From: Limisphaerales bacterium
Lineage (GTDB): Bacteria; Verrucomicrobiota; Verrucomicrobiae; Limisphaerales; UBA11358
DNA: 44,575 nucleotides
Direction: 5' to 3'
NCBI GenBank assembly: GCA_003152145.1
Contig: PLZL01000157.1
Span: 1 to 44,575 of the forward strand
In this document: in pieces, positions 9,618-39,417 of the stretch
Position numbering within the stretch: the first letter of the stretch is position 1
Layout: each line of letters starts with the position of its first letter
The notes under the pieces: generated by a model
The model's database searches: none
What the model saw: only the letters and a program-made list of their open reading frames with translations
Told to the model about the DNA's origin: nothing
Position numbers and translations under genes: made by a program

Positions 9618-11249
9618 ATGAACGACCTGCCGCCAAACTGCCGAAATCGCGCTCGCGACGGAGAACGTTTCTCCCTCTCCGCCCGTCGGACGGGGGAAGA
9701 GGGCCGGGGTGAGGTGGGTTCTTCTCACAAATTTGTCCGTTTCTGTATTCCTTTCGTGTGTTTCGCGTGTTTCGCGGTTCAATCTTCCCGCGCTACAGAT
9801 TTTGCGATTTTGAATCCCGGCGCATTTTCAAATTGCGTCGCGCATTTCAATGCGATGGAAGATGAAAACGTCACCAACTTCATTTCCAACGCCGATTCGT
9901 GGAGCTGGCTTCAAAAGGAAATTCCGTTTTTCGAGTGTTCCGACCGTGAAGTCGAAGAGATGTATTACTTCCGGTGGTGGTCGTTTCGCAAACATCTGGA
10001 ACAAACGACGAATGGATTTGTTTTCACGGAATTTCTCACCCGTGCCGCGCCTGTCAGCAGCGCGCTCGGCCATCACTTGATGGAAGGTCGCTGGTTGCAC
10101 GATCAAAATTATCTCGATGACTACGTCCGCTATTGGCTGCGCGACGAAAACAGCCGCCAGCAATTGCACAAATACAGCAGTTGGCTGGAGGACGCCCTCT
10201 GGCAGCGCTACCTTGTGACCGGTGACAAGCGGTTTCTCGTTTCACTGCTCGACGATTTGACGCGCGATTACCGGCAATGGGAACAAGAACGCCTGACCGC
10301 CAGCGGCCTGCTTTGGCAATACGACGTCCGCGACGCGATGGAGGAGTCCATCAGTGGCTCGCGCACGAACAAAAACCTCCGCCCAACCATCAACAGCTAC
10401 ATGTTCGGCAACGCCCGCGCCATCGCGGCCATCGCGTGGCTGGCCGGTAACAAAAAGACCGCCGATGAATTCGACGCGAAGGCGGCATTTTTGAAAAAAC
10501 TTGTGCAGGAACAATTGTGGTATCCCGCCGCCGGATTTTTTGAAGTGTTGCAAGATGATTGGAAATTTTCCAACGCACGCGAGGAAATCGGTTTCATCCC
10601 CTGGTATTTCGAGTTGCCGGACGACGAAACGAAATACGAGGCAGCTTGGACGCAACTAACTGACTCGCAAGGCTTTTTCGCGCCCTTTGGCATCACCACC
10701 GCCGAGCGACGGCATCCGCAATTCCGCACGCACGGCTACGGTCATTGCGAATGGGATGGGGCAGTCTGGCCGTTCGCCACGTCGCAGACGCTTGACGCGC
10801 TCGCGAATGTTCTGCGCGATTACAAATCGTCCGTCGTCACCAGGAGCGATTACTTCGACGCCTTTCTCACCTACGTTCACAGCCAGCATGCCGACGGCAA
10901 GCCTTACATTGGCGAGTATCTCGACGAAACGACCGGTCAGTGGATCAATGGTAAGGATGGCCGCAGCCGTTATTACAATCACTCAACCTTTGCCGATTTG
11001 CTCATCACCGGTGTTGCCGGTTTGGTGCCGCGCGCAGACGACACCGTTGAAGTTTGGCCGTTGTTGCCGGATGAAACTTGGAATTGGTTCTGTCTCGACG
11101 GCGTGGATTATCACGGTCACACGCTGACAATTCTTTGGGACAAAGACGGTTCACGCTACCATCACGGCAAAGGCTTGATCGTGCTGGCCGACGGAAAAGA
11201 AATTGCGCACGCGGACAAATTGGAGAAACTGGCCGGGAAACTCCTGTGA
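9618..11249 (+). CDS. Secreted MGH1-like (alpha/alpha)6-barrel glycoside hydrolase
   Basis: Up to 543 residues. The fold call rests on the helical pattern and on motifs such as HGYGHCEWDGAVWPF, GKPYIGEYLDE and YYNHSTFADLLITG, seen in MGH1-like / GH63-clan hydrolases; family number uncertain. The hydrophobic signal-peptide core FVCFACFAV is encoded by a dispersed repeat (9752-9779), and the 35 residues before it come from a palindromic repeat (9673-9703). Two starts are possible: ATG 9618, 7 bases after the aldolase stop, or GTG 9714, which gives a more ordinary signal peptide. Mature protein starts near ATDFAILNP. Acts outside the cytoplasm, probably on a pectin-derived oligosaccharide. Stop overlaps the next gene by 4 bases (GTGA). 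Confidence 0.75.
   Translation: MNDLPPNCRNRARDGERFSLSARRTGEEGRGEVGSSHKFVRFCIPFVCFACFAVQSSRATDFAILNPGAFSNCVAHFNAMEDENVTNFISNADSWSWLQKEIPFFECSDREVEEMYYFRWWSFRKHLEQTTNGFVFTEFLTRAAPVSSALGHHLMEGRWLHDQNYLDDYVRYWLRDENSRQQLHKYSSWLEDALWQRYLVTGDKRFLVSLLDDLTRDYRQWEQERLTASGLLWQYDVRDAMEESISGSRTNKNLRPTINSYMFGNARAIAAIAWLAGNKKTADEFDAKAAFLKKLVQEQLWYPAAGFFEVLQDDWKFSNAREEIGFIPWYFELPDDETKYEAAWTQLTDSQGFFAPFGITTAERRHPQFRTHGYGHCEWDGAVWPFATSQTLDALANVLRDYKSSVVTRSDYFDAFLTYVHSQHADGKPYIGEYLDETTGQWINGKDGRSRYYNHSTFADLLITGVAGLVPRADDTVEVWPLLPDETWNWFCLDGVDYHGHTLTILWDKDGSRYHHGKGLIVLADGKEIAHADKLEKLAGKLL
9673..9703. repeat. Palindromic repeat of the CCCTCTCC type
   Basis: CCCTCTCCGCCCGTC and GACGGGGGAAGAGGG face each other around one G, with 13 of 15 positions complementary. 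The continuation GGCCGGGGTGAGG is typical of a dispersed intergenic repeat. A related palindrome lies at 32880-32912. Here it falls within the annotated 5' end of a glycosidase gene. Confidence 0.65.
9752..9779. repeat. Three-unit TTTCGTGTG dispersed repeat that encodes a signal-peptide core
   Basis: Three near-identical 9-base units, TTTCGTGTG, TTTCGCGTG and TTTCGCGGT. The reverse complement of this repeat type occurs at 15277-15304. In the reading frame of the host gene it encodes F-V-C-F-A-C-F-A-V, the hydrophobic core of the signal peptide. Confidence 0.6.
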
Positions 11250-14200
11250 AAAGAATCCTCATATTTGTTTTTCTCGGAACTGCGCTGGCACTCGGCGCTG
11301 CCCCGAAAAAACTGTCGCCGATTGTTTCCCTCGGCACCGATGGCAAGTTGGTTTATGACGCGGATGATCACGGCAACCGCGTCCCTGATTTTTCGAACTG
11401 CGGTTACGCCGGCGGGGACAGGCCGATTCCCGATGCGCCGGTTCGCGTTGTCGTTTCGCCCGTCGCCGGCGACGAAGCGGCGCGAATTCAAATGGCGATT
11501 GATTACGTTGCTAGTCTGCCTGCCGACACCAACGGCATTCGCGGCTCGGTTTTATTGCTAAAAGGACGGCATGAAGTATTTGGTGGGTTGCAAATCACCA
11601 ACTCCGGCATTGTGTTACGCGGGCAAGGCATGGGCGAAGACGGAACGATTCTTGTTGCGGCGGGAGTTGATCGTCGCCCGCTCATCCGCATCACCGGTCA
11701 AAACGATCCTTCAAGCAGCTCCAATTCAAACTGGCAAATCACGGATGATTACGTTCCCGTCGGTGCGGCAAGTTTTCATTTGAAAAACGCCAGTGGTTTG
11801 AAAACCGGCGATACGATTCAGATTATTCGTCCGAGCGCGAAAGAATGGATTGATGCGCTCGGCATGACGGAATTTGGCGGAGGCATCGGCGATTGGAGGT
11901 TGGTTTGGCATCCGGGTGGCTATGATCTGGTTTGGGATCGTGTTATCCAAAAAACTGACGGCAATCTCGTGACGATTGACGCGCCCATCACGACAGCGAT
12001 TGAAACCAATTTTGGCGGTGGGCGAATCGAAGCGTATTTGTGGCCGGGACGAATTGAAAATACCGGCGTCGAAAACCTGCGTCTCGAATCCACCTTCGAC
12101 GCAAGCAATTTAAAGGACGAAAACCATTCATGGTTCGCAATCACAATGGTATGCGCGGCCAACACTTGGGTGCGCCAAGTAACGTTTGAACACTTTGCCG
12201 GTTCGGCGGTGGCGGTTTACGAAAGTTGCAAACGCGTTACGGTCGAGGATTGTATTTCGCTCACGCCCGTTTCGGAAGTCGGTGGCTGGCGGCGCAACAC
12301 GTTTTTCACGATGGGGCAACAGACATTGTTTCTGCGCTGCTGGGCAGAGCATGGTCGTCATGATTTTTCCGTCGGCCACTGTGCCGCGGGGCCGAATGCC
12401 TTTGTGCAATGCGAGGCGACGCTGCCCAGCGGTGACAGCGGCGCGATTGAAAGCTGGGCCAGCGGAACTCTTTTTGACAACGTGCGTATTGACGGTGGCG
12501 GTTTAAGCCTGATGAATCGCGGCAGCAATGGCGAGGGCGCGGGCTGGGCGTCGGCAAATTCGGTTTTATGGCAGTGCGACGCGTCGAGAATATCCTGCGA
12601 AAATCCGCCGACGGCGCAGAACTGGGCGTTCGGTTGCTGGGGCGAATTTGAAGGCAATGGTATCTGGCGCGAGGCAAATTCTTCTGTCCGTCCGGTTAGT
12701 TTGTTCGTGGCGCAGATAGCCGACCGGTTCGGCGCTGGCGCGGCGGCAAAAATTAAATTGATGCCGCGCTCGCTCGATGAATCCAGCAATCCCACGTTGG
12801 AACAGGCTGCGAAATTGATTGCCGATTCGCGCAAGCCCGCACCGCAACTTTCGGATTACATTGCGGCTGCCGCCATGCGAGATCCGATTTCAATTGAATT
12901 GAGAGACGCCAAAAGCATTGATGAAATTCCTGGTCCGGAATTCAAAATTAAAAATTCAAAATTAAAAATTACAGTCACGAACGGCTGGCTGGTCTGCGAC
13001 GGCAAATTGCTGATCGGCGGCGTTGAAGGGATCAACTGGTGGCGCGGCAACATGCGCCCGAGCGAAGCCCCGAATTACGGCGTGAATTTAACCCGCTTCG
13101 CGCCGGGACGAATCGGCCCCGGTTTCACTGATGATTTGAATGAAATCGCCGACGGCATAATTTCCCAAGACCAAGTCGCGCTCGATCACCACTACGGACT
13201 TTGGTATGACCGCCGTCGCGAGGACCACGAGCGCGTGCGCCGGATTGACGGCGATGTTTGGGCGCCGTTTTACGAACAGCCGTTTGCGCGCAGTGGCCAG
13301 GGCACGGCTTGGGACGGCTTGAGCAAATATGATCTCACGAAATTCAATCCGTGGTATTGGTCGCGGCTGAAGCAGTTCGCCGACATCTGCGACGAGCGTG
13401 GACTGGTGCTGTTCAACGAAAATTATTTCCAGCACAACATCCTCGAAGCCGGTGCACATTGGGCGGATTGTCCGTGGCGAACGGCGAACAATATCAACGA
13501 CACCGGCTTTCCCGAACCGCCGCCGTTCGCGGGCGACAAGCGGATTTTCATGGCGGAACAATTTTACGACGTCTTGAATCCAATTCGCCGCAAACTGCAC
13601 GAGAATTTCATCCGGCAGAACCTGAACAATTTCACCAACGACGCCAATCTCATCCAGTTCACCAGCGCGGAATTCACCGGCCCGCTGGCGTTCGGGCAGT
13701 TTTGGCTGGACACGATTGGCGGTTGGGAACGCGACACCCAAAGGCATCCGCTGGTCGCGCTGGCGGCGACAAAGGACGTGCAGGATGCGATTCTCGCCGA
13801 CGCAAAGCGCGCCGCGGTCGTGGACGTGATTTGCTTCCGCTACTGGTGGCAGACAGACAAGGGATTGTTCGCGCCGAGAGGCGGGCAAAACCTTTCGCCG
13901 CGCCAATTCGAGCGGCAATGGAAGGGCGGCGCGCCAAACGATGAAAATCTCGCGGCGATGACGGCAGAATACCGGCAGAAATATTCCGACAAGGCGGTGA
14001 TCGCTTGCGGGGAGGATGTGAACTTTGACGGTGCCTGGGCGTTTTTATGCGCGGGAGGCTCGATGCCGAATCTGCCGTCCACGACGGATGCGAAGCTATT
14101 AGCGGCGATCCCGCAAATGCAACCATGGCTGGCGGACAACGCGAAAAGAATTTGGGCATTGCGCCGACCGGGAAAACAAATTTTAGTTTACGGAAACAGC

Positions 14201-14353
14201 AGCACGGAACTGGATTTTTCCAGCGAATCCTGCGCGTTTCGTTTGAACGCGATTGATTCGCGCACCGGCAAAGTGACGCCCGGCTCCCAAATTGTTCAAG
14301 CCGGTGGCAAAGTAACATTGCCGGGCGGCATCATTTGGCTGACGCGAAATTGA
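11246..14353 (+). CDS. Secreted two-domain protein: beta-helix (pectate-lyase-like) plus C-terminal barrel-like domain
   Basis: 1035 residues from GTG 11246, overlapping the upstream stop; signal peptide (V/M)KRILIFVFLGTALALGA. Residues about 30-560 have the opening of secreted right-handed beta-helix proteins (DFSNCGYAGGDRPIP, then IQMAIDYVASLP and GSVLLLKGRHEV). Residues about 576-1035 (from GWLVCDGKLLIGG, with GINWWRGNM, LVLFNENYFQHN, VDVICFRYWWQTD) look like a separate alpha/beta-barrel hydrolase-like domain, possibly the DUF6298 type from memory, unverified. The two halves meet at an AT-rich tandem repeat (12940-12971) that encodes a Lys-rich linker. The function is unknown; the neighbours suggest a polysaccharide lyase or hydrolase for a decorated pectin region. 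The catalytic residues cannot be named. Confidence 0.75.
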   Translation: MKRILIFVFLGTALALGAAPKKLSPIVSLGTDGKLVYDADDHGNRVPDFSNCGYAGGDRPIPDAPVRVVVSPVAGDEAARIQMAIDYVASLPADTNGIRGSVLLLKGRHEVFGGLQITNSGIVLRGQGMGEDGTILVAAGVDRRPLIRITGQNDPSSSSNSNWQITDDYVPVGAASFHLKNASGLKTGDTIQIIRPSAKEWIDALGMTEFGGGIGDWRLVWHPGGYDLVWDRVIQKTDGNLVTIDAPITTAIETNFGGGRIEAYLWPGRIENTGVENLRLESTFDASNLKDENHSWFAITMVCAANTWVRQVTFEHFAGSAVAVYESCKRVTVEDCISLTPVSEVGGWRRNTFFTMGQQTLFLRCWAEHGRHDFSVGHCAAGPNAFVQCEATLPSGDSGAIESWASGTLFDNVRIDGGGLSLMNRGSNGEGAGWASANSVLWQCDASRISCENPPTAQNWAFGCWGEFEGNGIWREANSSVRPVSLFVAQIADRFGAGAAAKIKLMPRSLDESSNPTLEQAAKLIADSRKPAPQLSDYIAAAAMRDPISIELRDAKSIDEIPGPEFKIKNSKLKITVTNGWLVCDGKLLIGGVEGINWWRGNMRPSEAPNYGVNLTRFAPGRIGPGFTDDLNEIADGIISQDQVALDHHYGLWYDRRREDHERVRRIDGDVWAPFYEQPFARSGQGTAWDGLSKYDLTKFNPWYWSRLKQFADICDERGLVLFNENYFQHNILEAGAHWADCPWRTANNINDTGFPEPPPFAGDKRIFMAEQFYDVLNPIRRKLHENFIRQNLNNFTNDANLIQFTSAEFTGPLAFGQFWLDTIGGWERDTQRHPLVALAATKDVQDAILADAKRAAVVDVICFRYWWQTDKGLFAPRGGQNLSPRQFERQWKGGAPNDENLAAMTAEYRQKYSDKAVIACGEDVNFDGAWAFLCAGGSMPNLPSTTDAKLLAAIPQMQPWLADNAKRIWALRRPGKQILVYGNSSTELDFSSESCAFRLNAIDSRTGKVTPGSQIVQAGGKVTLPGGIIWLTRN
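12940..12971. repeat. AT-rich 14-base tandem repeat inside a coding region
   Basis: Two perfect copies of ATTCAAAATTAAAA (12940-12953, 12954-12967) and the start of a third. It resembles AT-rich intergenic repeats and encodes EFKIKNSKLKI at the boundary between the two domains of the host protein, in an otherwise GC-rich gene. Confidence 0.8.
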
Positions 14354-14359
14354 ACGAAT

Positions 14360-15274
14360 ATGAATTTCAAAATCATTTTCATCTGCGTAGCAGTGGCTGC
14401 CATCGCAAGTCCGGGTTGGCTGCAGAGTTCAGTTGCGGCGGACACGACAAACTCTGTTGCAGCTTCAGCCGACGCGCACCGCTACAAAATCGCCGTGTGC
14501 GACTGGATGATCCTCAAACGCCAAAAACTCGGCGCGTTTCAACTCACGAAGGACATCGGCGCGGATGGTGTGGAGGTGGACATGGGTTCGCTGGGCACGA
14601 ACGAGACGTTTGAGAGCGTGATCACGACTAATGCTGAAGTGCGCCAGCAATTTCTCGACAAGGCGCGCGAGCTTGGTCTCGAAATTCCGTCGCTGGCCAT
14701 GTCGGGTTTTTACGCGCAATCATTTGCCGGGCGGCCCACCGTGCCGCGCATGGCGCAGGATTGCATTGACACGATGAAGGCTATGAACGTGAAAATCGCG
14801 TTCCTGCCGCTCGGCGTGCGCAGCGATTTGGTCAAGCACCCGGAGTTGCGCTCAAATGTGGTTGAACGGTTGAAAATCGTCGGCAAGCAGGCTGAAAAAG
14901 CCGGTGTCATTATCGGCGTGGAGACGGAACTTCCGGCGGCGGAGCAGGTGAAATTGCTGGATGAAGTTGGTTCGCCCGCCATCAAGATTTATTACAACTT
15001 TTCCAACCCGCTGCAAAACGGATACGATTTGATTGCCGAACTTCGCACGCTGGGCAAGGACCGCATCTGCCAGATTCATTGCACGGATCAGGACGGCGTG
15101 TGGCTACAGGACGATCCGAAAATTGACATGACAAAGGTGAAGCAAGCGCTCGACGAAATGGGCTGGAGCGGCTGGCTCGTGATTGAACGGTCGCGCAAGG
15201 CGGGTGACTCGCGAAACGTAAAGGGCAACTTCGGCGCGAACACGGCGTATTTGAAATCCATTTTCCAAAAATGA
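14360..15274 (+). CDS. Secreted sugar isomerase/epimerase-like TIM barrel (AP endonuclease 2 superfamily)
   Basis: 304 residues with an N-terminal signal peptide (MNFKIIFICVAVAAIASPGW) and then a compact TIM barrel: AFQLTKDIGADGVEVDMG, IIGVETEL, IYYNFSNP, ICQIHCTD and LVIERSR follow the metal-ligand order E, D/N, H, E of the xylose-isomerase-like fold. At the second ligand this protein has Asn213, where I would expect Asp (YYDxxN) in relatives. A signal peptide on this fold is common in Verrucomicrobia and Planctomycetes; some exported relatives have been linked to 3-keto-glycoside cleavage, which is an alternative to isomerase activity. It starts 6 bases after the previous stop and its stop overlaps the next start (ATGA). 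Confidence 0.8.
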   Translation: MNFKIIFICVAVAAIASPGWLQSSVAADTTNSVAASADAHRYKIAVCDWMILKRQKLGAFQLTKDIGADGVEVDMGSLGTNETFESVITTNAEVRQQFLDKARELGLEIPSLAMSGFYAQSFAGRPTVPRMAQDCIDTMKAMNVKIAFLPLGVRSDLVKHPELRSNVVERLKIVGKQAEKAGVIIGVETELPAAEQVKLLDEVGSPAIKIYYNFSNPLQNGYDLIAELRTLGKDRICQIHCTDQDGVWLQDDPKIDMTKVKQALDEMGWSGWLVIERSRKAGDSRNVKGNFGANTAYLKSIFQK

Positions 15275-16968
15275 CGAACCACGAAACACACGAAACGACA
15301 CGAACTGAAATGACTTCGGGTAGGACAGGCGTCGCGCCTGTCTCCATTTTACTGAAGTTAGAGACAACCGCGACGGCTGTCCTACGCACAAGTGTTGCCG
15401 GCGCTGTCTCCTTGTTCCTGCTTGTGGCAGCACAAGCCGCGTTTGGAGCAGAACAAACTGTCGAACAATGGGGCATTTTCGAAATCGCGTTTAATGGCCC
15501 GACGAACGGCAATCCATTTCTCGACGTGAGATTGTCCGCACGCTTTACGCAGGGCGATTCGGCGGTTGAAGCAAGCGCTTTTTACGACGGCGACGGCATT
15601 TATCGCGTGCGCTTCATGCCGGAAACGCAGGGTGAATGGCACTACGTCACCGAAAGTTCCAGCGCGGAACTCAACGGCAAGGCTGGCGAATTCACCGCCA
15701 CAAAACCGTCGCCGCAAAATCACGGCCCGGTTCAGGTCGCGAATAGTTATCATTTTGCTTACGCCGATGGTGCGCCATACAGAGAACTCGGCACGACGTG
15801 CTATTTCTGGGAACTTCAGCCCGAATCGTTGCAGGAAGAAACGTTGAAGACACTCTCGACCTCGCCGTTCAACAAAATCCGCTTCTGCATTTTTCCCAAG
15901 CGCTACCAGTGGAACACCAACGAGCCGGCGATTTATCCGTTTGAAGGCGCGCCGTTGACGAACTGGGATTTTGCGCGGTTCAATCCGGCATATTTTCAGC
16001 ACATCGAGCGGCGCATCGCCGATCTGCAAAAACTCGGCATCGAGGCGGACATCATTTTGTTTCATCCCTACGACGGCGGACATTGGGGCTTTGACCGGAT
16101 GCCGGCGGATGCGGACGACCGTTATTTGCGCTACATCGTCGCGCGCCTTGCGGCATATCGTAATGTCTGGTGGTCGCTGGCGAATGAGTGGGATTTCATG
16201 AGGGAGAAAAAGGAATCGGATTTTGTGCGCTTCGGCGAAATCATTTCCGCGAACGACCCGTATCATCACCTGCTTTCCATCCACAACGGCTCGAAAATAT
16301 TCAACGACACGCTGCCATGGATCACGCATGCGAGCATCCAGAACGGCTCGGCGGTGGAAGACCCCGGACGCGCCGAACTTTACCGCGAGGTTTATCGCAA
16401 GCCCGTCGTTTATGACGAAGTGAAATACGAAGGCAATATCGAGAGCCGCTGGGGACAACTGTCCGGCGAGGAACTCGTGTTCCGGTTTTGGAACGCCACC
16501 GTTGCGGGCACTTACTGCGGGCACGGTGAAACTTACAAAAGCGATGACCAAATCCTTTGGTGGTCGAAAGGCGGCGTGCTCAAAGGCCAAAGCCCGCCGC
16601 GACTCGCGTTTTTGAAAAAAGTTCTCGACGACGCGCCGCCGGAAGGCATCGAGCCGATTGACAAATGGCAGCATCCCGAATACGGCGGCCAGCCCGGACA
16701 ATACTATTTGATTTACTTCGGCAAACAGACGCCCCAATCGTGGGAATTCCTTTTGCCTAAACCGCCGCTGGCCAAAGTCCAGTCGGCGAACGGCATGAAA
16801 TTCACTGCGGAAATTCTCGACACCTGGAATATGACCGTGACGCCGGTCAAAGGCATTTTCACGTTGAAGAAAAAGGATGACTATTTCTTTGGCGACAAAG
16901 ACGGCCGCTCCATCGAATTGCCCGGCAAACCTTACATGGTGATTCGCATCAAACGGGTGAATGATTAA
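15271..16968 (+). CDS. Secreted DUF5060-DUF4038-DUF5605 glycoside hydrolase (GH140-like)
   Basis: 565 residues from ATG 15271 (in-frame ATG 15310 is an alternative). After the leader, an N-terminal beta-sandwich (VEQWGIFEIAFNGP to GEWHYVTES, DUF5060) precedes a TIM barrel of the DUF4038/GH140 type (YRELGTTCYFWELQ, ADIILFHPYDGGHWG) and a C-terminal beta domain (DUF5605 type). Likely catalytic acids are Glu306 in SLANEWDF and Glu383 in VVYDEVKYEG, in the positions expected for a clan A retaining enzyme. Characterised GH140 releases apiose chains from rhamnogalacturonan II; other activities are possible. The first 45 or so residues are translated from two dispersed repeats (15277-15304, 15320-15385), and the signal-peptide core AGAVSLFLLVAAQAAFG follows. 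Extracytoplasmic. Confidence 0.82.
   Translation: MTNHETHETTRTEMTSGRTGVAPVSILLKLETTATAVLRTSVAGAVSLFLLVAAQAAFGAEQTVEQWGIFEIAFNGPTNGNPFLDVRLSARFTQGDSAVEASAFYDGDGIYRVRFMPETQGEWHYVTESSSAELNGKAGEFTATKPSPQNHGPVQVANSYHFAYADGAPYRELGTTCYFWELQPESLQEETLKTLSTSPFNKIRFCIFPKRYQWNTNEPAIYPFEGAPLTNWDFARFNPAYFQHIERRIADLQKLGIEADIILFHPYDGGHWGFDRMPADADDRYLRYIVARLAAYRNVWWSLANEWDFMREKKESDFVRFGEIISANDPYHHLLSIHNGSKIFNDTLPWITHASIQNGSAVEDPGRAELYREVYRKPVVYDEVKYEGNIESRWGQLSGEELVFRFWNATVAGTYCGHGETYKSDDQILWWSKGGVLKGQSPPRLAFLKKVLDDAPPEGIEPIDKWQHPEYGGQPGQYYLIYFGKQTPQSWEFLLPKPPLAKVQSANGMKFTAEILDTWNMTVTPVKGIFTLKKKDDYFFGDKDGRSIELPGKPYMVIRIKRVND
15277..15304. repeat. CGAAACACA dispersed repeat at the start of the GH140-like gene
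   Basis: CCACGAAACACACGAAACGA and its continuation form near-repeats of CGAAACACA. It is the reverse-complement orientation of the repeat at 9752-9779. It is translated as NHETHETTRTE directly after the start codon. Confidence 0.6.
15320..15385. repeat. REPIN-like double-hairpin element inside the GH140-like leader
   Basis: Perfect 9-base terminal inverted repeats GTAGGACAG (15320-15328) and CTGTCCTAC (15377-15385) enclose two short hairpins: GACAGGCG-TCG-CGCCTGTC (15324-15342, perfect) and GACAACCG-CGA-CGGCTGTC (one G-U position). Two inverted REP-type hairpins in about 66 bases is the architecture of REPINs. No transposase is encoded nearby. The element is read through in frame as part of the leader of the surrounding gene. 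Confidence 0.8.
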
Positions 16969-19615
16969 AATGAAATTTTCGTTTTTAAAATTCGTTCTCA
17001 CTGCTTTTATCATCTTCGTTTGCAGCTGGCTGAAGGCGGAAACAATCTCGATTGTAATTCCGACAAACGCCGCGCCGCGCGTGGAGTTTGGCGCGGAGAA
17101 ATTGGTCGAGGCGTTGAAGACGGTCAAAGTAGATGCGGCGATTGTTGATGCAAAAAGGGTTTCCGGTCGCAAAATTCATTTGGAGACGCCGCATGATTCG
17201 TCAATTGGCCGCGAAGGTTTCCGATTGGACGTGATGGGCAACACTGATGTGGCTGTCAGATCCGGCGACGATTCCGGCGCGCTTTACGGTTGTTTGGAAT
17301 TGGCCAAACGGATTCGTGCTGCCGGGGAATTGCCGACGACGGGAATTTCAAATTTTCACGACGCGCCGGCGATGAAACTGCGCGGCACGTGCATCGGGAT
17401 GCAGAAGACGTTCATTTTGCCGGGTAGAAAAGTTTATGAATATCCCTACACGCCGGAGTTGTTCCCGTGGTTTTACGACAAAAAGTTGTGGACGGAGTAT
17501 CTGGATTTCCTCGCCGCGAACCGCATGAACACGCTGTATCTCTGGAGCGGCCATCCGTTCGCGTCGCTCGTGCGGCTGAAGGATTATCCCTACGCCGTCG
17601 AGGTGCCGGACGCCGTGTTCCAAAAAAATCAGGAGCAATTCCGCTGGTTGGCGCAAGAGTGCGACAAGCGCGGCATCTGGCTGGTGCAGATGTTTTACAA
17701 CATCATCGTCTCGAAACCGTTCGCCGAGAAGAACGGAATTTCCACGCAGTTTTCCGCGCCGACACCGCTCACGGAAGATTACACGCGCAAATCCATTGCG
17801 GAATTTGTGAAGCAATATCCGAACGTCGGCCTGATGGTCTGTCTCGGCGAGGCGTTGCGCGACACGCCGAATCAACTGGAATGGTGCACGAACGTAATTT
17901 TGCCCGGCGTGCTGGACGGGATGCGCGCGGCGAATTTGAAGGAAGAACCGCCGGTCGTCATCCGCACGCATGCGATGGACCCGTATGCGATCATGCCCGC
18001 CGCGTATCAGGTTTATTCCAACCTGTTCACCGAGTCGAAATACAACGGCGAATCGCTGACCACATGGGAGCCGCGCGGAAAAGACCAGGCCACGCACCTG
18101 GCGATGGCCAAGCTCGGCGCGCACCTCGTCAACATCCACATCCTCTCCAACCTCGAACCGTTCCGTTACGGCGACACGGAATTCATCCGCAAATCCGTGC
18201 TCGCGTCGCGCGACCGGCTGGGCGCGACGGGCATTCATTTGTATCCGCTGTCGTATTGGAACTGGCCGTATTCGCCGGACATCGCCGAGTCGCCGCTGCT
18301 GCAATGGCAACGCGACTGGATCTGGTTCGAGGCGTGGTCGCGTTATTCGTGGAATCCCGACATGCCGGAAAACGAAGATCACGCCTACTGGATTTCGCGG
18401 CTCGCGGATTTTTACGGCAACACGAACGCGGCGGGAAAAATTTATGAAGCTTACAACAACGCCGGCGAAGTCGCGCCGCGCCTGATCCGGCGGTTCGGCA
18501 TCACGGAAGGCAACCGCCAGACGCTCTCGCTCGGCATGACTTTGGACGAATTGGTGAACCCGAAGAAATACAACGTGTTACCGGATTTGTGGGGATCGCA
18601 ATCGCCGGAAGGTGAGCGACTGGACGTGTATGTGAAAAACGAGTGGAACCATGAGCCGCACGTCGGTGAAACGCCGGATTCGATCATCGCGGAAGTTCTG
18701 GCGGAATCGAGCAACGCGGTCGCCGCCGCCTACGCAGCGGAGCCGCTGGTGGCCAAAAACCGCGACGAGTTTGAGCGTTTGCGCAACGACGCCCGCTGCA
18801 TTCAGGCGATGGCGGAAAATTACTCAGCCAAAGTGAAGGCGGCGGAGCTGGTTTTGCGCTACGACTACAGCCACGACATCGCGGACATGGAGGCGGCGGA
18901 AAAATTCCTGGCCGAAAGTTTTGCCGATTACCAGAAGCTCGTTGCGCTGACGGAGACGACTTACCACTACGCCAACTCCATGCAAACGTCGCAGCGAAAA
19001 ATTCCTGTCAGCGGCGGCATCGACGGCCAGGGAACGAACTATCTCTGGTCGCAACTCGTGCCGCTTTACAAAAAGGAATTGGGAGATTTTCAGGCGAAGG
19101 TCGCGCAGCTGAAACAAAACACCAATTCAATCCCGCCAGTTGAGGAATCGAAAATCAAGCCGTGGCCGGCGGGGCTGTTCACATTGATTTCAACGAACGC
19201 GGAGACTTACAAAGTTGAGGTCGGTGCAAAAGTGTTTACTGACCGGGACTACGCCATTCAAGGTCTCGCGTCGCAATTGAAAGGACTGACGGGAATCCGT
19301 TTTTCTCACACCGTGGCCAAAGACGGTTTTCCGCCGATTGAATTTGAAGCGAGCGAGCCGGTTTACGTTTTGGTCGGCTATTTCGACAGCAACCAAAAAG
19401 CGTGGCTGCAAGTGCCGAGGCTGGAATTCGCCGCGCAGGCCGATGAACGCGGCGGCGTGGACACGTTTCTGGAAAAAGCCGCGACGATTTCCAGCTGCCC
19501 GAATGTGAATATTCACGCGTTTCGCTTCGACGCCGGAAAACAAAAACTGGAACTCATCGGCAAAGGCAGCTTTGTGATTCTCGGTGCCGTGCCGCAGTTG
19601 GTGAAATTGAAATGA
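16961..19615 (+). CDS. Secreted GH20/GH67-like multidomain glycoside hydrolase
   Basis: 884 residues with signal peptide MKFSFLKFVLTAFIIFVCSWLKA. The first ATG (16961) overlaps the previous stop; ATG 16970, three codons in, is equally plausible. Residues about 25-130 form the alpha/beta domain found at the N-terminus of GH20, GH67 and related enzymes (VEFGAEKLVEALK, SGALYGCLELAKRI). A barrel at about 137-490 starts MKLRGTCIGMQKTF and includes FLAANRMNTLYLW, WLVQMFYNI, LMVCLGEALRD (Glu near 297) and GIHLYPLSYWNWPYSPD. A helical region and a C-terminal beta domain follow. The layout recalls alpha-glucuronidase/galacturonidase-type enzymes, which would fit pectin, but the exact family and catalytic pair cannot be fixed by eye. 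Probably periplasmic or extracellular. Confidence 0.72.
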   Translation: MIKMKFSFLKFVLTAFIIFVCSWLKAETISIVIPTNAAPRVEFGAEKLVEALKTVKVDAAIVDAKRVSGRKIHLETPHDSSIGREGFRLDVMGNTDVAVRSGDDSGALYGCLELAKRIRAAGELPTTGISNFHDAPAMKLRGTCIGMQKTFILPGRKVYEYPYTPELFPWFYDKKLWTEYLDFLAANRMNTLYLWSGHPFASLVRLKDYPYAVEVPDAVFQKNQEQFRWLAQECDKRGIWLVQMFYNIIVSKPFAEKNGISTQFSAPTPLTEDYTRKSIAEFVKQYPNVGLMVCLGEALRDTPNQLEWCTNVILPGVLDGMRAANLKEEPPVVIRTHAMDPYAIMPAAYQVYSNLFTESKYNGESLTTWEPRGKDQATHLAMAKLGAHLVNIHILSNLEPFRYGDTEFIRKSVLASRDRLGATGIHLYPLSYWNWPYSPDIAESPLLQWQRDWIWFEAWSRYSWNPDMPENEDHAYWISRLADFYGNTNAAGKIYEAYNNAGEVAPRLIRRFGITEGNRQTLSLGMTLDELVNPKKYNVLPDLWGSQSPEGERLDVYVKNEWNHEPHVGETPDSIIAEVLAESSNAVAAAYAAEPLVAKNRDEFERLRNDARCIQAMAENYSAKVKAAELVLRYDYSHDIADMEAAEKFLAESFADYQKLVALTETTYHYANSMQTSQRKIPVSGGIDGQGTNYLWSQLVPLYKKELGDFQAKVAQLKQNTNSIPPVEESKIKPWPAGLFTLISTNAETYKVEVGAKVFTDRDYAIQGLASQLKGLTGIRFSHTVAKDGFPPIEFEASEPVYVLVGYFDSNQKAWLQVPRLEFAAQADERGGVDTFLEKAATISSCPNVNIHAFRFDAGKQKLELIGKGSFVILGAVPQLVKLK

Positions 19616-19621
19616 CGAAAT

Positions 19622-19700
19622 CCAAATGACGAATGACGAAACATTGAAGTTGCAGAAAAACACCGCATTTTGTCAGCCTTGTTCATCATTCGTCATTTGG
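19622..19700. repeat. 19-base inverted repeat spanning the GH127-like start codon
   Basis: The arms 19622-19640 (CCAAATGACGAATGACGAA) and 19682-19700 (TTCATCATTCGTCATTTGG) are complementary at 18 of 19 positions, separated by 41 bases. The start codon 19626-19628 is in the left arm. The motif is a common dispersed-repeat type. The right arm encodes SSFVIW, which enters the signal-peptide core. Confidence 0.8.
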
Positions 19701-21707
19701 TATTCGATTTGTTTTCTGTTGTGCTTCACGTTGAGTGCCTTCGCAACCGATGCGGGCGTCGTTGACACGACTTCCAGCCCATTCGCTAAAGTCCAGACGG
19801 TTGGTTTGGGCGAAGCGCAATGGACTCATGGTTTTTGGGCGGAACGGTTCGAGCTTTGCCGGACGCAAATGGTTCCGAGCATGGCGCGGCTGATGCAGGG
19901 CACGAATTACAGCCAGTTTTATTATAATTTTGAAATTCTCGCCGGCCTCGTTGAGGGCAAATCGCACGGCGCGTCGTTCAACGACGGCGATTTATACAAA
20001 TTTCTCGAAGGCGCTGCGGCGACCTTGGCGGTGACAAACAACAGCCGGATAAACAACAAACTCGATGAAGTCATCGGCGTGATCGCACAGGCTCAGGAGA
20101 CGAACGGCTACCTTGACACCTGGGTGCAACTTCATCGACGTGCGGGTAATACGAACGTCATGCCGTTTTCCGACCCGAACAATTTTGAAATGTATAACTT
20201 CGGCCACCTGATGACGGCGGCGTGCGTGCATTATCGCGCGACGGGAAAAACGAACTTCCTCGTCGTCGCACGCAAAGCGGCGGATTTCCTTTGTGACGAA
20301 TTCAAAAATCCGACGCCCGGACTCGCGCGCAATGCCATCTGTCCATCGCATTACATGGGCATCGTGGAATTGTATCGCACTACGCACGAATCGCGTTACC
20401 TCGAACTGGCGAATAACCTCCTTGCGATGCGCAGCCTCGTAAAGGAAGGCACTGATGACAACCAGGACCGCGTTCCGTTCACGCAACAGGACGAGGCGGA
20501 GGGCCACGCCGTCCGTGCCAATTATCTTTATGCCGGCGCGGCGGATTTGTTTCTGGAAACCGGCGATGCAAACCTCTGGAAACCGCTCGCGGAAATCTGG
20601 ACGAATGTCGTCACAAAAAAAATGTATATCACCGGCGGCTGCGGCGCGCTTTACGACGGAGCGTCGCCGGACGGCGCAAAATATCAAAAAACCATCACGC
20701 GCGTGCACCAGGCTTACGGACGCAATTATCAACTGCCCAACACGACGGCCTATAGCGAGACGTGCGCGAACATCGGCAATGTCATGTGGAACTGGCGGAT
20801 GTTTCTGGCGACCGCCGATGCGAAGTTCATGGACGTGGTGGAACTCGCGCTTTACAACAGCGTTCTTTCCGGCGGCGCGCTCGACGGCACAAACTATTTC
20901 TACACCAACCCGTTGCGGGTGACCGATCCGATGCCGACAGAGCTCCGCTGGCCGCGGACGCGCGTGCCGTTTGTGAGTTCGTTCTGTTGTCCGCCGAATC
21001 TGGTTCGCACGATTGCCGAATCTGCTAATTACGCTTACGCAAAAACTGACTCTGCAATTTGGGTGAACCTTTACGGCGGCAGCGCAATGGAAACAAAATT
21101 GCCAAACGGTGAAAAAATCAAGCTCTCGCAGGAAACGGATTATCCGTGGAATGGCCGAGTGCGCATTAACATTGAAGCATGCGGAGAAAAAGAATTCGCG
21201 CTCAAGCTGCGGATTCCAGGTTGGGTAAACGACGCGAGTGTGAGAATCAACGATTTGCCCGCCGACTTTTCGCCGCAGCCGAGAAGTTATTTTGAAGTGC
21301 GCCGGACGTGGAAGCCTGGCGATTTTGTGGATTTGAATCTGCCGATGCCAGTGCGAGTGATGGAAGCGAATCCGCTGGTCGAGGAGGATTTGAACCAAGT
21401 TGCAATCCAGCGCGGATCGGTAGTTTATTGCCTTGAATCACCGGACTTGCCGCCGGGAGTGAAATTATCGGACGTGGTGATTCCATCGGATATCAATCTG
21501 GTCGTGCGTTACGATCGGCGGCTGCTCGACGGCGTGGTGGTCCTCGAAGGCAAGGCGCTGGCGCGGCAAAGCAAAAACTGGAGTGGCAGATTATACCGCG
21601 AGTTTCAGCCGGATGACCTCAAACCATTCAACGCGCGGTTCATTCCGTATTCGGTCTGGCAGAATCGGGGACCGTCGGAAATGTCCGTCTGGCTGCCCAG
21701 AAACTAA
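19626..21707 (+). CDS. Secreted GH127-like (DUF1680) glycoside hydrolase
   Basis: 693 residues. After an unusual repeat-derived leader (core SFVIWYSICFLLCFTLSAFA), the protein follows DUF1680: WTHGFWAERFE, FNDGDLYKFLEGAA, AQETNGYLDTW, then Glu378 and Cys380 in YSETCANIG and the Cys454-Cys455 pair in SSFCCPPN. In characterised GH127 beta-L-arabinofuranosidase, one Glu and three Cys in these motifs bind zinc and one Cys is the nucleophile; all are present here. A GH127 from a Bacteroides rhamnogalacturonan II system removes aceric acid, so arabinofuranoside or aceric acid are both possible substrates. No good ribosome-binding site is visible, and the start codon is inside a hairpin. It lies 10 bases after the preceding stop. 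Confidence 0.87.
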   Translation: MTNDETLKLQKNTAFCQPCSSFVIWYSICFLLCFTLSAFATDAGVVDTTSSPFAKVQTVGLGEAQWTHGFWAERFELCRTQMVPSMARLMQGTNYSQFYYNFEILAGLVEGKSHGASFNDGDLYKFLEGAAATLAVTNNSRINNKLDEVIGVIAQAQETNGYLDTWVQLHRRAGNTNVMPFSDPNNFEMYNFGHLMTAACVHYRATGKTNFLVVARKAADFLCDEFKNPTPGLARNAICPSHYMGIVELYRTTHESRYLELANNLLAMRSLVKEGTDDNQDRVPFTQQDEAEGHAVRANYLYAGAADLFLETGDANLWKPLAEIWTNVVTKKMYITGGCGALYDGASPDGAKYQKTITRVHQAYGRNYQLPNTTAYSETCANIGNVMWNWRMFLATADAKFMDVVELALYNSVLSGGALDGTNYFYTNPLRVTDPMPTELRWPRTRVPFVSSFCCPPNLVRTIAESANYAYAKTDSAIWVNLYGGSAMETKLPNGEKIKLSQETDYPWNGRVRINIEACGEKEFALKLRIPGWVNDASVRINDLPADFSPQPRSYFEVRRTWKPGDFVDLNLPMPVRVMEANPLVEEDLNQVAIQRGSVVYCLESPDLPPGVKLSDVVIPSDINLVVRYDRRLLDGVVVLEGKALARQSKNWSGRLYREFQPDDLKPFNARFIPYSVWQNRGPSEMSVWLPRN

Positions 21708-27607: not shown

Positions 27608-27678
27608 TAGATTAACCAAACCGCCCACGCTACCGACTCCAGCTCCGGCCACAACGCCGGTCATATAAATCAAATTCA

Positions 27679-30800: not shown

Positions 30801-31652
30801 GAAGGCACGCTTAAGACCGAGGTGGTAGATACTGTTCTTTTGGAAATCCCCGACCCGCGCGGTGTTTCCGCCGATTTGGCTGAACGCCTTGACAACGCTT
30901 TGAAGAAGATGATGCGGCGCGACGTGACGCATCTGGTTGAGGAGGCGTTGCTCCAATGCCATACCGAGGAAGCGATGCGGGAGATTCTACTCAAAGAGGC
31001 TGAACTCCCGACAGAGTTATGTCAGGAGGACAGACGCGAACTTGATGATTGTGTATTTGAACTCATCGGCGTCACCAATAAATCGGAGCGCAAAAAAATG
31101 GTGGATGAACTGTATCGCGTCACCACCGAGTATTACCGTTACCAGCGCACACAGGATATTCAGGCGATGGAGAATCGGGCCGGTAACAACGGGCGCCGGT
31201 TCGATGCACAGGATTTGGCTGGAAACATTTGGCAATCGCTATCTGAAAGCGAACGAGGGCCTGCTGTTATCGAGTGGCTCAAATCAGCCTACCCAAAGGC
31301 CGAAGCAGTCGAAATCCCAGAGGGCAATCCAACGGCTCTTGGGGCGAGTGATATGTTTGACCCCAACGGCGTCGTTTTCAAAGGCAACAAAGAGGCGCAT
31401 CATGTCCGCTATGCCAGCCCGGAGCAAGCCGCCTTGGTCGCGGCCTTGGCCGAATTTGGGATTCGAGGACACATTGAAGTTCCAAAATCGGCTGCGGACT
31501 GTGGCCGGGGTCTGAAGGAATTGCGAATTCGCATCAAATCCGCCGAAGAACATTTCACCGGGCTTGCCGCCTCCCGCACAGGCGCGCAATCGCTTCAAGA
31601 GAAAACCGCGACACTCCTTATGCACTGGTATGTCCACGGAAGGAACACATAA
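27801..31652 (+). CDS. Single-chain restriction-methylation enzyme, type IIG-like
   Basis: 1283 residues. An N-terminal PD-(D/E)XK nuclease-like motif is seen as Glu40, Asp51 (KRSDLRIF), and Glu67-Val-Lys69 (ILAGEVKL). The N6-adenine methyltransferase core has motif I DPACGSGSF at about 389 and motif IV NPPY at 507-510. A target-recognition-like region starts around residue 773 (LVRLGEIAEVKRGITSGCDD), with another region at about 1000-1283. One protein that both cuts and methylates is the type IIG/IIL layout; BREX PglX has a similar size but no nuclease motif of this kind. No specificity or partner gene is adjacent. The base composition is visibly more AT-rich than the neighbouring sugar genes (for example 28141-28200 is 25/60 G+C), consistent with transfer. 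A 14-codon leader frame (27764-27808) overlaps the start. Confidence 0.85.
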   Translation: MSKLHEVRENEVAFCADVKSWADALFSSHPDWLFTHAKIEQYGTGNNKRSDLRIFCRGSQTPILAGEVKLPGTPEGRSPFDPSLMQDAFNKADNIQAPYFFTWNVNTFVLFDRSKWKVPLIERRLKDWDLGFNLNSPGDCKRPDVHAYIRDKFLPELFEMLAAIVKGEVVEWGIPPDDVFIRSLESHLEWPVFGTRDYLIAASAADTAFSDKLQSWMAEEMNWTFDPGDANNWSDTLERAARTLCYIFSNRAIFYEAIRAKYPDDLNHLKMPRRGRNEQRGIYDYFRDQFKRAVAETGDYEPIFYPQVDDWAGALIFSSDMACEGWTGLFKNLSQYNFREIPYDIIGGIFQKLISPEERQKFGQFYTNEDIIDIINAFCIRRAGDIVIDPACGSGSFLVRAYHRKAWLSEQKGGGRRHQDAGKSHQELLHEIYGCDIALFAAHLATLNLASRHIEDEENYPYIARANFFEIPDHRDKFSVVPGLREANGEKDMIAVPLPDVDAVIGNPPYVRQEGIPKESELKRQKGETKEAYEARRKTTKDYLQELCRELWPGLKLSGRSDLHCYFWPVAASLLKEGGYFGFLTSSSWLDVDYGFALQGWILKDFKLIAVIESLDEPWFKDARVKTSITILQRCDDRNSRMDNVVKFVRLFRPVKDILGDRSHGDEAARQNAAEALRKIILQTNAPLSNAQMRIIPVKQQELWDEGVRAGTLLKAEEMVEPDSEDQEDGDNNGSALKEAAAMYRIGSDYVAGKWGRFLRAPDLYFRLIKDYQSRLVRLGEIAEVKRGITSGCDDFFMPHDVTEEVLDKVKEGLLWNNVGLMTSCKRSEIESGKVRVVRAGDNTLHPIETKYLKPEVHSLMQVDRPVIRASDLDRVVLWVNEPLAALGHSYAAKYIRWGSRQTFASKKSKAVPVPLRSSCVSRPLWYDVTKDEIGVAFWPKAQKYRHIVPANPEGLICNCNLYTVVPELGNRYERIALTAILNCTLVALFKCFYGRYAGTEGTLKTEVVDTVLLEIPDPRGVSADLAERLDNALKKMMRRDVTHLVEEALLQCHTEEAMREILLKEAELPTELCQEDRRELDDCVFELIGVTNKSERKKMVDELYRVTTEYYRYQRTQDIQAMENRAGNNGRRFDAQDLAGNIWQSLSESERGPAVIEWLKSAYPKAEAVEIPEGNPTALGASDMFDPNGVVFKGNKEAHHVRYASPEQAALVAALAEFGIRGHIEVPKSAADCGRGLKELRIRIKSAEEHFTGLAASRTGAQSLQEKTATLLMHWYVHGRNT

Positions 31653-31696
31653 ATTTTTCAATCAGCACTGAAACTTGATTTAAGCCAGCAATCGCC

Positions 31697-32773: not shown

Positions 32774-32812
32774 CGAACATGAACAAGTCCACGACAGTCG
32801 TTGTTTCTCCCT

Positions 32813-32912
32813 CTCTTCCGCAAAGCGGAGGAGCGGGGCTGGGAGAGGAGGCGGCTTTGATCGAAACCCCTCTCTCCGGCTCTCTCCCCACTCGTTCCTC
32901 GCGGGGAGAGAG
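32813..32912. repeat. Double-hairpin dispersed repeat between two genes
   Basis: First hairpin: CTCTTCCGC-AAA-GCGGAGGAG (32813-32833, one G-U). Second: CTCTCTCCCC (32880-32889) with GGGGAGAGAG (32903-32912), 10 perfect pairs. It is the same CCCTCTCC family as 9673-9703. It fills most of the 169-base gap 32774-32942; the AAGGAG at 32930-32935 is a good ribosome-binding site for the next gene, with a 7-base spacer. Confidence 0.75.
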
Positions 32913-32942
32913 GGGAAATAGCCGGCGCCAAGGAGAATCAGA

Positions 32943-33782: not shown

Positions 33783-33800
33783 TTTATGCAAAGGAGTTTA

Positions 33801-33830
33801 ACCACGGATGGACACGGATGGACGCGGATG
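33801..33830. repeat. Threefold 10-base dispersed repeat
   Basis: Three consecutive 10-base units, ACCACGGATG, GACACGGATG and GACGCGGATG. The text is a familiar dispersed intergenic repeat in Verrucomicrobia-like genomes. It sits in the 151-base gap 33783-33933, otherwise without a visible gene. Confidence 0.75.
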
Positions 33831-33933
33831 CAGCCACCGTGAACCACGCCCCTGCCGCGCCGAAATCCGATGAAGGCGAATAGCCCGAAAGAAAATAGCC
33901 TAAAGCAACGCCCTGTGTTAGCCTAACTCCGCC

Positions 33934-34746: not shown

Positions 34747-34830
34747 GCGAGAACAGCGCGCCGATGGCTGCGTGAACGCCAACATATTCCGCTTCATTCT
34801 TAAAACCTTTTGCGGCAAAATTACCGGCAA

Positions 34831-36834: not shown

Positions 36835-36879
36835 TCTAGAACAGTTTTTATCATTTGGATCCGGGCTGAACATTTTTTC

Positions 36880-38235: not shown

Positions 38236-38238
38236 AAA

Positions 38239-39417
38239 TTATTTCGGCCACTCGCCGTTCACAATCGGGAGCAATTGTAATTTCGCCGGATCAATCACGA
38301 CGTGCTTGATGCGTTTGCGTTCCCACGTGTAGGTGATGTGCACCAGCCCGTCGCTGGTTTGAATCACGGCGGGATAGGCAAATCCGTTCGGCGCATTTGG
38401 ATCGTCTTCCAAGACCAAAGCGGCGAACCAGTTTGTGTCATCCGGCGAAACGGCCACATTCAACGGACTGCGGCCTTTGTTATTTGAACCAGTGCGGATA
38501 TTGTGGTTATAGACCAAGAGTTGCCGACCGTCTTTCAAAGTCACCGCGTCAATGCCGGAATCGGGGTTTGGCAAACTGGTCAACGTCATGGCACCCCACG
38601 TTTTACCGTTGTCACTGGAAGTGATTTGAAAAATCTTATCGTTGCGTGTGCGGCCAACGGCTTCGAGTATCTCGCTTTTCAGAAATAAAATGCTCGGCTG
38701 AATCGCGCCGATTTCGTTGCCGTCGTTCACCGGCGGCGTGGCCGTCCACGTTTTTCCAAAGTCAGTCGTGCGCTCGAAATGCACCCGCCAGCCGCCGTCG
38801 CCTTCCGTGCTGCTGCCGCAAAGAATGTCGCCGTTCGCAAGCTGCACCGGCTTGTTTTTGATCGGGCCGAGAATCCCATCCGGCAAGCGCTGCGGTTTCG
38901 ACCACGTTTTGCCGTCGTCGGTTGAAGTCATCATCATGCCCCACCAGGTCGCCGGACTGGAGCCGACCTTGTAAAACAAAAGCAACGGACCATTTTTCGG
39001 CTGGAACAGAACCGGATTCCACGTCGGGAAGCGATTGGTGGCGAAGCCTGTTCCATCGGCGACGGCAACCGGAGGCGTCCAATTTCCATTTTCATTCCGC
39101 GAGACGTAAATGCAAACGTCGGAATTGCGCTCGGCTGTGCCGCCGAACCACGCGGCAACAAGGCCGGATTTCGTTTCCGCAATCGTCGAGGCGTGGCACG
39201 ATGGAAACGGGGCGTTCGTAAAAATGAATTCGGATTTCACGATGGCGTTTTGGTTTGTAACCGTCGCGCAGCCGGTGGTGGAAAAAGAAACAGCAAGTAT
39301 GGCGCAAACGAAATTCCGCCAGGTTTTGGAGTGCGCCAGTCCTCTGGCGCTATCAAAGCGGCAGAAGGCTGCCGCAGTCCAAAACACTATCGCGCCGTTC
39401 AAAACCTTCGATTTCAT
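38239..39417 (-). CDS. BNR/Asp-box six-bladed propeller protein (sialidase-like), lipoprotein candidate
   Basis: 392 residues on the minus strand. Three Asp boxes (STDDGKTW, TTDFGKTW, SSDNGKTW) and the BNR_2 opening FPSCHASTIAETKSGLVAAWFGGT identify the sialidase-like propeller. Members are usually annotated exo-alpha-sialidase, but many act on other sugars, and here a plant-polysaccharide substrate is more likely. The leader WRNFVCAILAVSFSTTGC ends in a possible lipobox, and about 25 residues before it are translated from the double-hairpin repeat at 39323-39385. ATG 39417 overlaps the stop of the rhamnosidase gene (ATGA), so the two are translationally coupled. It is the last gene of the minus-strand group. 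Confidence 0.8.
   Translation of the reverse strand: MKSKVLNGAIVFWTAAAFCRFDSARGLAHSKTWRNFVCAILAVSFSTTGCATVTNQNAIVKSEFIFTNAPFPSCHASTIAETKSGLVAAWFGGTAERNSDVCIYVSRNENGNWTPPVAVADGTGFATNRFPTWNPVLFQPKNGPLLLFYKVGSSPATWWGMMMTSTDDGKTWSKPQRLPDGILGPIKNKPVQLANGDILCGSSTEGDGGWRVHFERTTDFGKTWTATPPVNDGNEIGAIQPSILFLKSEILEAVGRTRNDKIFQITSSDNGKTWGAMTLTSLPNPDSGIDAVTLKDGRQLLVYNHNIRTGSNNKGRSPLNVAVSPDDTNWFAALVLEDDPNAPNGFAYPAVIQTSDGLVHITYTWERKRIKHVVIDPAKLQLLPIVNGEWPK
39323..39385. repeat. REPIN-like double-hairpin element in the leader of the BNR gene
   Basis: Terminal inverted repeats GTTTTGGA (39323-39330) and TCCAAAAC (39378-39385) enclose two perfect hairpins, GCGCCAG-TCCT-CTGGCGC (39333-39350) and GCGGCAG-AAGG-CTGCCGC (39358-39375). 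The architecture matches the element at 15320-15385 but the sequence is different. It is read in frame on the minus strand as FWTAAAFCRFDSARGLAHSK. Confidence 0.85.

Follow-up and report, generated by a model that had tools for sequence, protein, structure and literature searches.

Repeat-bearing leaders in the window

The window, i.e., the whole 44,575-nt stretch of contig PLZL01000157.1 from a Limisphaerales bacterium, encodes four enzymes with predicted export leaders, which start at 9618, 15271, 19626, and 39417 (Table 1). When the entire window is scanned for ungapped inverted repeats, three palindromes reach a score of at least 14 (15320-15385, 19616-19706, and 39323-39385), each lying inside one of these leaders. 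Expressed as z-scores against shuffles, the fold strengths of the leaders at 15271, 19626, and 39417 are −6.5, −3.8, and −4.6, respectively. In the leader at 9618 the hydrophobic core CIPFVCFACFAV is mostly a TTTCGTGTG arm. A preliminary description had proposed that at least four leaders carry repeats of different families and that some repeat orientations may create a functional hydrophobic core; the former is borne out by these features, and the latter is exemplified by FVCFACFAV and FACFAYFAV. Its statement that the leaders are built wholly or partly from repeats holds for "partly" and not for "wholly", since mostly only part of a leader is repeat-derived.

The dimer at 15320-15385 folds at −44.8 kcal/mol and has GTAG at both outer ends (GTAGGACAGGCGTC on the + strand at 15320 and GTAGGACAGCCGTC on the − strand at 15372-15385). 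It fits the definition of a GTAG repetitive extragenic palindrome (REP), a GTAG-tagged short palindrome that is often an inverted dimer. The two arms at 19616-19640 and 19682-19706 are 88% complementary. Outside the four leaders a motif scan of the window gives a single match, with three mismatches (21290-21307), and thus no cytosolic gene start in the window carries a repeat.

Table 1. Coding and repeat features of the four leaders, numbered by position in the window.
Feature	Position	Strand	Basis or remark
MGH1-like glycoside hydrolase with repeat-bearing leader	9618..11249	+	Pfam PF22422; alternative start GTG 9714
CCCTCTCC...GAGGGCCGGGGTGAG-type stretch, first 32 codons	9671..9713	+	By eye and peptide; possibly upstream of the true start
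TTTCGTGTGTTTCGCGTGTTTCGCGGTTC arm, encodes most of the hydrophobic core	9752..9780	+	Sequence, in-frame start list
DUF5060/apiosidase-like enzyme with repeat leader	15271..16968	+	Pfam
Exact copy of TTTCGTGTGTTTCGTGGTTC; other strand encodes NHETHET	15276..15295	−	ATG 15310 could bypass it
GTAG...CTAC REP dimer, 66 bp, encodes GRTGVAPVSILLKLETTATAVL	15320..15385	+	Palindrome scan, fold, start list
GH127 enzyme with repeat leader	19626..21707	+	Pfam PF07944
5′ arm (AATGACGAATGACGAA), holds the start codon and MTNDE	19616..19640	+	Palindrome scan, fold
3′ arm (TTCATCATTCGTCATTTGG), encodes SSFVIWYS directly before the core	19682..19706	+	Palindrome scan, fold, start list
BNR_2 sialidase-like lipoprotein with repeat in the n-region	38239..39417	−	Pfam PF13088
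Palindromic dimer (TTTTGGACTGCGGCAG / TTTTGGAGTGCGCCAG variants), approximately residues 11-32, before the core	39323..39385	−	Palindrome scan, fold

Predicted translation of the repeats

From the in-frame start codons, the repeats at three of the leaders would be coding if the enzymes are exported. At 15271 the available starts are ATG 15271 and ATG 15310, both ahead of the REP dimer, followed by TTG and GTG within the core; the gene call P0241 (552 aa, start 15310) retains the dimer and loses the NHETHET stretch. At 39417 all of the early starts (ATG 39417, TTG 39402, and GTG 39387) precede the repeat, and the next one, GTG 39240, lies past the cleavage region. The GH127 gene has ATG 19626 inside the 5′ arm, TTG codons in the loop at 19644 and 19650, and then TTG codons within the core. 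Initiation at a loop TTG could skip only the 5′ arm, so that at least the 3′ arm would be translated if the enzyme is exported; the gene call P0001 (693 aa) begins at 19626. Since no ATG, GTG, or TTG lies between repeat and core at 15271, 19626, or 39417, these repeats would be coding, provided that the enzymes are exported.

The ORFs (open reading frames) might instead be over-long, with the repeats being 5′ untranslated DNA and translation beginning downstream, as De Nocera et al. argued in 2013 for many N-terminal REPs (PMC3733652). By reading, this would fit many of the repeat-overlapping ORFs in the k-mer test of relatives described below, the others there being chance k-mer matches; a downstream start is also possible for the MGH1 ortholog L231 and for the first stretch of the 9618 leader, where GTG 9714 could bypass 9671-9713. 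At 15271, 19626, and 39417, however, the next starts lie within or past the hydrophobic core, and beginning there would abolish the signal peptide. Moreover, the gene calls P0001 and P0241 keep the repeats, and the GH127 genes of L024 and, after its second arm, of L002 offer no later start ahead of the core. We regard untranslated repeats as an unlikely explanation.

Dispersal of the repeat families

Relatives were chosen through alignment of the GH127 protein, which gave 114 loci, of which 80 were kept; the best are mostly metagenome-assembled genomes of Verrucomicrobia subdivision 3 / Limisphaerales. Dispersal counts and genome-scale tests refer to the genomes of relatives, not to that of the window. 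Among 20 relative genomes, the TTCGTCATT heptamer was matched in 15, the TTCGTGTGTTTCG / TTCGTGTG pattern in 18, the GTAGGACAGGC pattern (GTAG family) in 11, with up to 89 places in one genome, the TTTTGGAGTGCGCCAG / TTTTGGAGTGCG pattern (the family of 39323-39385) in 16, and the TGGATGTT heptamer in 13. The last of these is absent from the window, and the other four of the five families occur in it. Backward-pattern controls gave 0-2 matches per genome and strand; several relatives have only 1-3 matches, and in one (G016) the count is no higher than its own control. The window and its relatives carry several unrelated dispersed families, namely GTAG REP dimers, TTTTGGAGTGCG dimers, heptamer-armed palindromes, and TTTCGTGTG palindromes.

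No match was found in Rfam at gathering scores. With regard to the features of miniature inverted-repeat transposable elements, inverted repeats are present at three of the four loci, and at 39417 the syntenic site lacking the repeat is too diverged for a target-site duplication to be read. Y1_Tnp matches, scored for presence and not for position relative to the repeats, occur in 18 of the 20 relatives.

Leaders of homologs and orthologs

Leader types were assigned by motif and by eye. Among the 120 GH127 homologs listed (of 7999), which are 71-83% identical to the window protein (its own entry excluded), 22 possess repeat-type leaders, 21 recognized by motif and one (P0118) by hand. Six of these are of the TNDE/FVIRH type (T type), 15 of the NIQH/WMLDV type (N type), and one is of another kind; omission of the weak cases P0041, P0057, P0085, and P0118 leaves 18 of the 120. 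On a tree of the 120 sequences the three main leader types require 17 changes, compared with an average of 20.2 for shuffled labels, and the well-supported branches force at least nine changes for ordinary leaders, at least eight for the N type, and at least five for the T type. Sister sequences may differ: P0022 (T type) pairs with P0041 (weak N type), and P0001, the window protein, with P0002, which has an ordinary leader. Of the 120 DUF5060 homologs listed (of 7923), seven were judged by reading to be of the repeat type (P0241, P0267, P0270, P0293, P0344, P0345, and P0358). Three of them, P0267, P0270, and P0345, have candidate leaders of approximately 100 residues with stretches resembling both arms of a GERAGVRA-type repeat.

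MGH1 matches occur in 19 of the 20 relative genomes. The leaders could be read at 13 of 20 loci (L223 and L235-L240 being left out), and together with the window 5 of 14 are of the repeat type, the others being L221, L224, L230, and L231. L221 contains the 9752-9780 arm plus a partner arm and reads MILAAKYANYAKGKLPMFFYFACFAYFAVQNSFA, such that the two arms of a single palindrome form the n-region (AAKYANYAK) and the core (FACFAYFAV); L224 and L230 are more diverged. In a tree of 11 of the 15 sequences, which requires three changes, L221 and L224 are sisters (Shimodaira-Hasegawa-like approximate likelihood ratio test 99) with a leader in common, the window gene groups with this pair and two genomes having ordinary leaders, and L230 stands elsewhere. 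Because of this arrangement, the MGH1 repeat leaders may reflect either one gain with losses or several gains. L231 and the window (9671-9713), although of different lineages, have a similar CSLSAQRMGGAGRG / FSLSARRTGEEGRG stretch right before the core, perhaps owing to an insertion hot spot or to shared ancestry.

Strong BNR matches (E below 1e-100) were found in 16 of the 20 genomes. In G009 (C130) and G019 (C39) there is a match to the BNR protein that is confined to its repeat part. Leaders were readable at 16 of 20 fetched loci, and 5 of 17, the window included, are of the repeat type; the others, in which different repeat families are found, are L250 and L251 (WMLDV) and L244 and L247 (GERVRVRG). 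The syntenic genes at L241 and L243, 78% identical, have an ordinary lipoprotein leader directly after the preceding gene (MKLSKTFFIFAISLAPLFSGCA in L241), whereas the window shares the end of that preceding gene but has the palindrome in the n-region.

Exported and cytosolic orthologs

A cytosolic gene for a dihydrodipicolinate synthase (DHDPS)-like protein provides a comparison, having 15 matches with at least 69% identity and adjoining the MGH1 gene in 14 of them (a 50-residue fragment in G008 is left out, and the match in G019 is in two pieces). According to the match table, the alignments begin at residue 1 in 12 cases and at residues 2-4 in three, so that none of these orthologs shows a displaced start. 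Repeat-type leaders are found in 10 of the 31 exported orthologs (MGH1, 5/14; BNR, 5/17) and in none of the 15 DHDPS-like genes (p = 0.011); the difference persists without the window rows (8/29 vs. 0/15, p = 0.024) and without L231 (9/31 vs. 0/15, p = 0.018). In a second cytosolic family, PhyH, none of the 120 homologs listed (of 2362) was judged by reading to have a repeat-type leader. The cytosolic neighbors at 31697, 32943, and 25666 were considered as controls and proved too rare, being present in 3, 6, and 1 of the 20 genomes.

The palindromes might be kept as mRNA hairpins that adjust how the downstream cistron is translated or how stable it is, in which case their coding capacity would be incidental. 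The strong folds (z from −3.8 to −6.5), the start codon lying within the stem at 19626, and the position of all the palindromes at gene junctions agree with such a role. Yet the reading frames are open into the core in all four window leaders, the DHDPS-like genes at neighboring junctions show no displaced start, and the diverged L224 and L230 leaders retain, as judged by eye, the peptide pattern in spite of drifted arms, so that regulation alone appears quite improbable. It is highly improbable that the repeat-bearing genes are decaying and non-functional: insertions are usually harmful and one MGH1 match, L225, with an ordinary leader, has a stop, but the ORFs are full length, the listed GH127 homologs are well conserved at the identities given above, and MGH1 and BNR evolve under purifying selection, the ratio of nonsynonymous to synonymous substitution rates between the window gene and its orthologs being about 0.1 (0.10-0.14 for MGH1 and 0.06-0.13 for BNR).

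Proposed explanation

We consider it probable that signal peptides tolerate repeat insertions, which sometimes capture the start codon or the core, and that leaders are favored sites without being exclusive ones. The repeats would insert chiefly into intergenic DNA and near gene starts, with no clear preference for a class of gene. As coding sequence they would persist most readily within the n-region of an export leader, since that region accepts changes of length and sequence and is removed after export. An inserted repeat could supply the start codon (19626), n-region residues (15271 and 39417), or core residues (9618, orthologs, and the WMLDV leaders); that at 19626 would also supply part of the hydrophobic core. 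Read in any of its three frames, the heptamer TGGATGT encodes WMLDVGC; the other strand encodes NIQHPTS, neither strand has a stop, and TTCGTCA encodes FVIRHSS. As the heptamers give the same peptide in every frame and TGGATGT is stop-free on both strands, in-frame capture should be easy. From the sequences we infer translation from these starts, export of the products, and an order in which insertion preceded selection. For the GTAG family only, a REP-associated tyrosine transposase (RAYT) is a plausible mover.

A bolder version is that the palindromes form a standing supply of ready-made export signals, in which one arm provides a start codon and hydrophilic n-region and the other a hydrophobic segment, such that one insertion would be enough to restore a signal peptide or to make a new one. 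The L221 arms, which form most of the MGH1 signal peptide, and the leader shared by its sister L224 bear on this idea, which we put forward tentatively and think rather doubtful.

Several points weigh against the view that export leaders are favored. The four genes were the choice of the preliminary description, and the leaders were typed by motif and eye. The orthologs are not independent of one another, and under a strict count restricted to long repeat-coded parts (MGH1 and BNR of the window, L221, L224, and L230) the comparison becomes 5/31 vs. 0/15 (p = 0.12), which is not significant. PhyH is a loose control, as its homologs include other phyla. The stretch at 9671-9713 folds in an ordinary manner (z −0.4), and two patterns for the CCCTCTCC-type family found no match in the window, even there; L231 has a GTG after its repeat-like stretch; and for L244, L247, L250, and L251 the shortest reading takes no more than a start codon and a few residues from the repeat. 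The genome-scale counts, in which signal-peptide and export labels are crude, contribute further such points. The k-mer test covered 758, 739, and 673 kb of three relatives with 1528 genes called, defined repeats from non-coding DNA, and set aside 43 pilin-type genes, 22 of which had false matches. Among signal-peptide genes, 7 of 466 have a repeat overlapping their first 50 codons, compared with 16 of 1019 among the others (p = 1.0). Palindromes scoring at least 16 in the N-termini of 1940 genes of at least 150 aa (four genomes and 36 loci) fall to export-labeled and other genes alike (13/904 vs. 10/1036, p = 0.40), and a count of the palindromes themselves gives 14 vs. 9 (p = 0.14). Gene bodies hold 41 palindromes (G005, G020, G004, G014, and the loci), 30 of which are in genes lacking an export label; 27 of the 41 begin past codon 110. 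These may be inserts that are translated within cytosolic genes, and possibly REPs like the intragenic ones of Opitutus.

Repeats in the upstream 150 bp likewise show no difference (20/466 signal-peptide genes vs. 48/1019 others). An earlier k-mer mask (55/508 vs. 75/1020) had seemed favorable and was rejected as too noisy because of chance 13-mers in coding DNA and a conserved pilin motif. Similarly, a first palindrome count on longer ORFs, again at a score of at least 16 (4/405 signal-peptide genes vs. 1/731 others), was favorable, and the wider count was not.

Within the 1940 genes, palindromes occur in 23 N-termini compared with 3 mid-gene stretches. An export signal follows the hairpin in 13 of the 23, against a base rate of 747/1940 (p = 0.09). 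Nine of the 23 have, as judged by reading, no start between repeat and export signal: two genes of prepilin type in G005 (C6, 17401 and 18381), G005 C77 51296, G004 C11 10915, G004 C12 37981, the GH127 genes of L002 and L024, the MGH1 gene of L020, and a gene with a twin-arginine translocation (Tat) motif in L022 (3116). That all nine are exported follows partly from the selection rule, which requires an export signal, and constitutes a pattern and not a test. A rule based on the next start after the hairpin was abandoned, as it cannot separate out cytosolic genes, in which the true start may be located further downstream. Several of the other N-terminal cases belong to the families N_methyl, PD40, DUF5060, and glutaminase, which we take to be exported.

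Two of these loci deserve description. At L086 (G005 C6, 15377-19407) three close prepilin-type genes, two called by Pfam N_methyl (one below the cut-off) and one by motif, each have a strong palindrome near the start, and two of them lack a start between the repeat and the prepilin motif. L022:3117-4217 encodes a twin-arginine (RRHFLAAS) protein whose first 70 codons contain a palindrome with arms of approximately 50 bases; no start codon separates this palindrome from the twin-arginine motif.

Over 3.18 Mb there are 234 palindromes with a score of at least 16, of which 168 are intergenic, 14 lie in exported N-termini, 9 in other N-termini, 41 in gene bodies, and 2 in C-termini; per 10 kb the densities are 3.94, 0.99, 0.51, 0.18, and 0.16, respectively. 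Per base, leaders are thus the densest coding place for palindromes, though not an exclusive one, and the 41 cases in gene bodies mean that coding palindromes are not confined to leaders. The preliminary expectation that signal peptides are the coding region most likely to absorb insertions agrees with these densities, but not with the shares of palindrome-bearing N-termini, which do not differ by export label, and its crude form, an excess of repeats in the first 50 codons of signal-peptide genes, is contradicted by the k-mer test. Its claim that the cytosolic genes lack such leaders stands for the gene starts of the window, and the PhyH and DHDPS-like proteins agree with it; in gene bodies, most palindromes are in genes without an export label.

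Among other observations, pairing of codon-aligned arms does not serve as a general rule, since it fits the arm positions only in some cases, and a promoter and terminator scan of 9000-20500 gave fewer sites than in shuffles. Amid the carbohydrate genes, 27801-31652 encodes a 1283-aa protein with Eco57I/MmeI-type methyltransferase matches, probably a restriction-modification enzyme.

The findings suggest how mobile repeats may reshape bacterial signal peptides, by a concrete route that can be tested, and offer one explanation for the unlike leaders of orthologous enzymes. In practical terms, comparison of orthologs can distinguish leaders encoded by repeats from gene calls that are too long, and the annotated start sites of secreted verrucomicrobial enzymes should be checked in this way.

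Comparison with known systems

Among the open papers ranked highest in literature searches (for most searches the best 10-20), none was recognized as a description of recurrent repeat-coded leaders in Verrucomicrobia; a search by the repeat peptides gave no paper, and the passages of PMC5771137 consulted hold nothing relevant. The closest case within the phylum is Opitutus terrae, a verrucomicrobium reported to have the most intragenic GTAG REPs among the genomes examined (PMC3733652); it was suspected there that REPs at the NH2 end of ORFs are for the most part not translated, and many of the hits were DNA-repair genes. The dimer at 15320-15385 resembles them in being palindromic, with GTAG outer ends, in its host phylum, and in its N-terminal position. 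The window differs from what is described there in that three leaders lack a downstream start, the genes encode exported enzymes, and further repeat families are involved.

Two other likenesses are by description and not by sequence. YPAL/RU-2 is a 168-bp enterobacterial repeat that contributes the signal peptide of YPO1552 in Yersinia (Delihas 2007, PMC2229807, PMC2759123), and the leaders of the window would work in the same way. There, one main exported protein is concerned, with a second predicted signal in YPO2495, whereas here there are several repeat families, several conserved enzyme families, many lineages, and a cytosolic comparison. The Rickettsia palindromic elements (RPEs) of Rickettsiales are likewise palindromic repeats in frame in functional, conserved genes (PMC2229807, PMC3733652), from which our cases differ in being located in export leaders; the gene-body palindromes of the relatives may be the more RPE-like. 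The repeat-coded export signals proposed here are accordingly a variant of a phenomenon already described in isolated instances elsewhere among bacteria.

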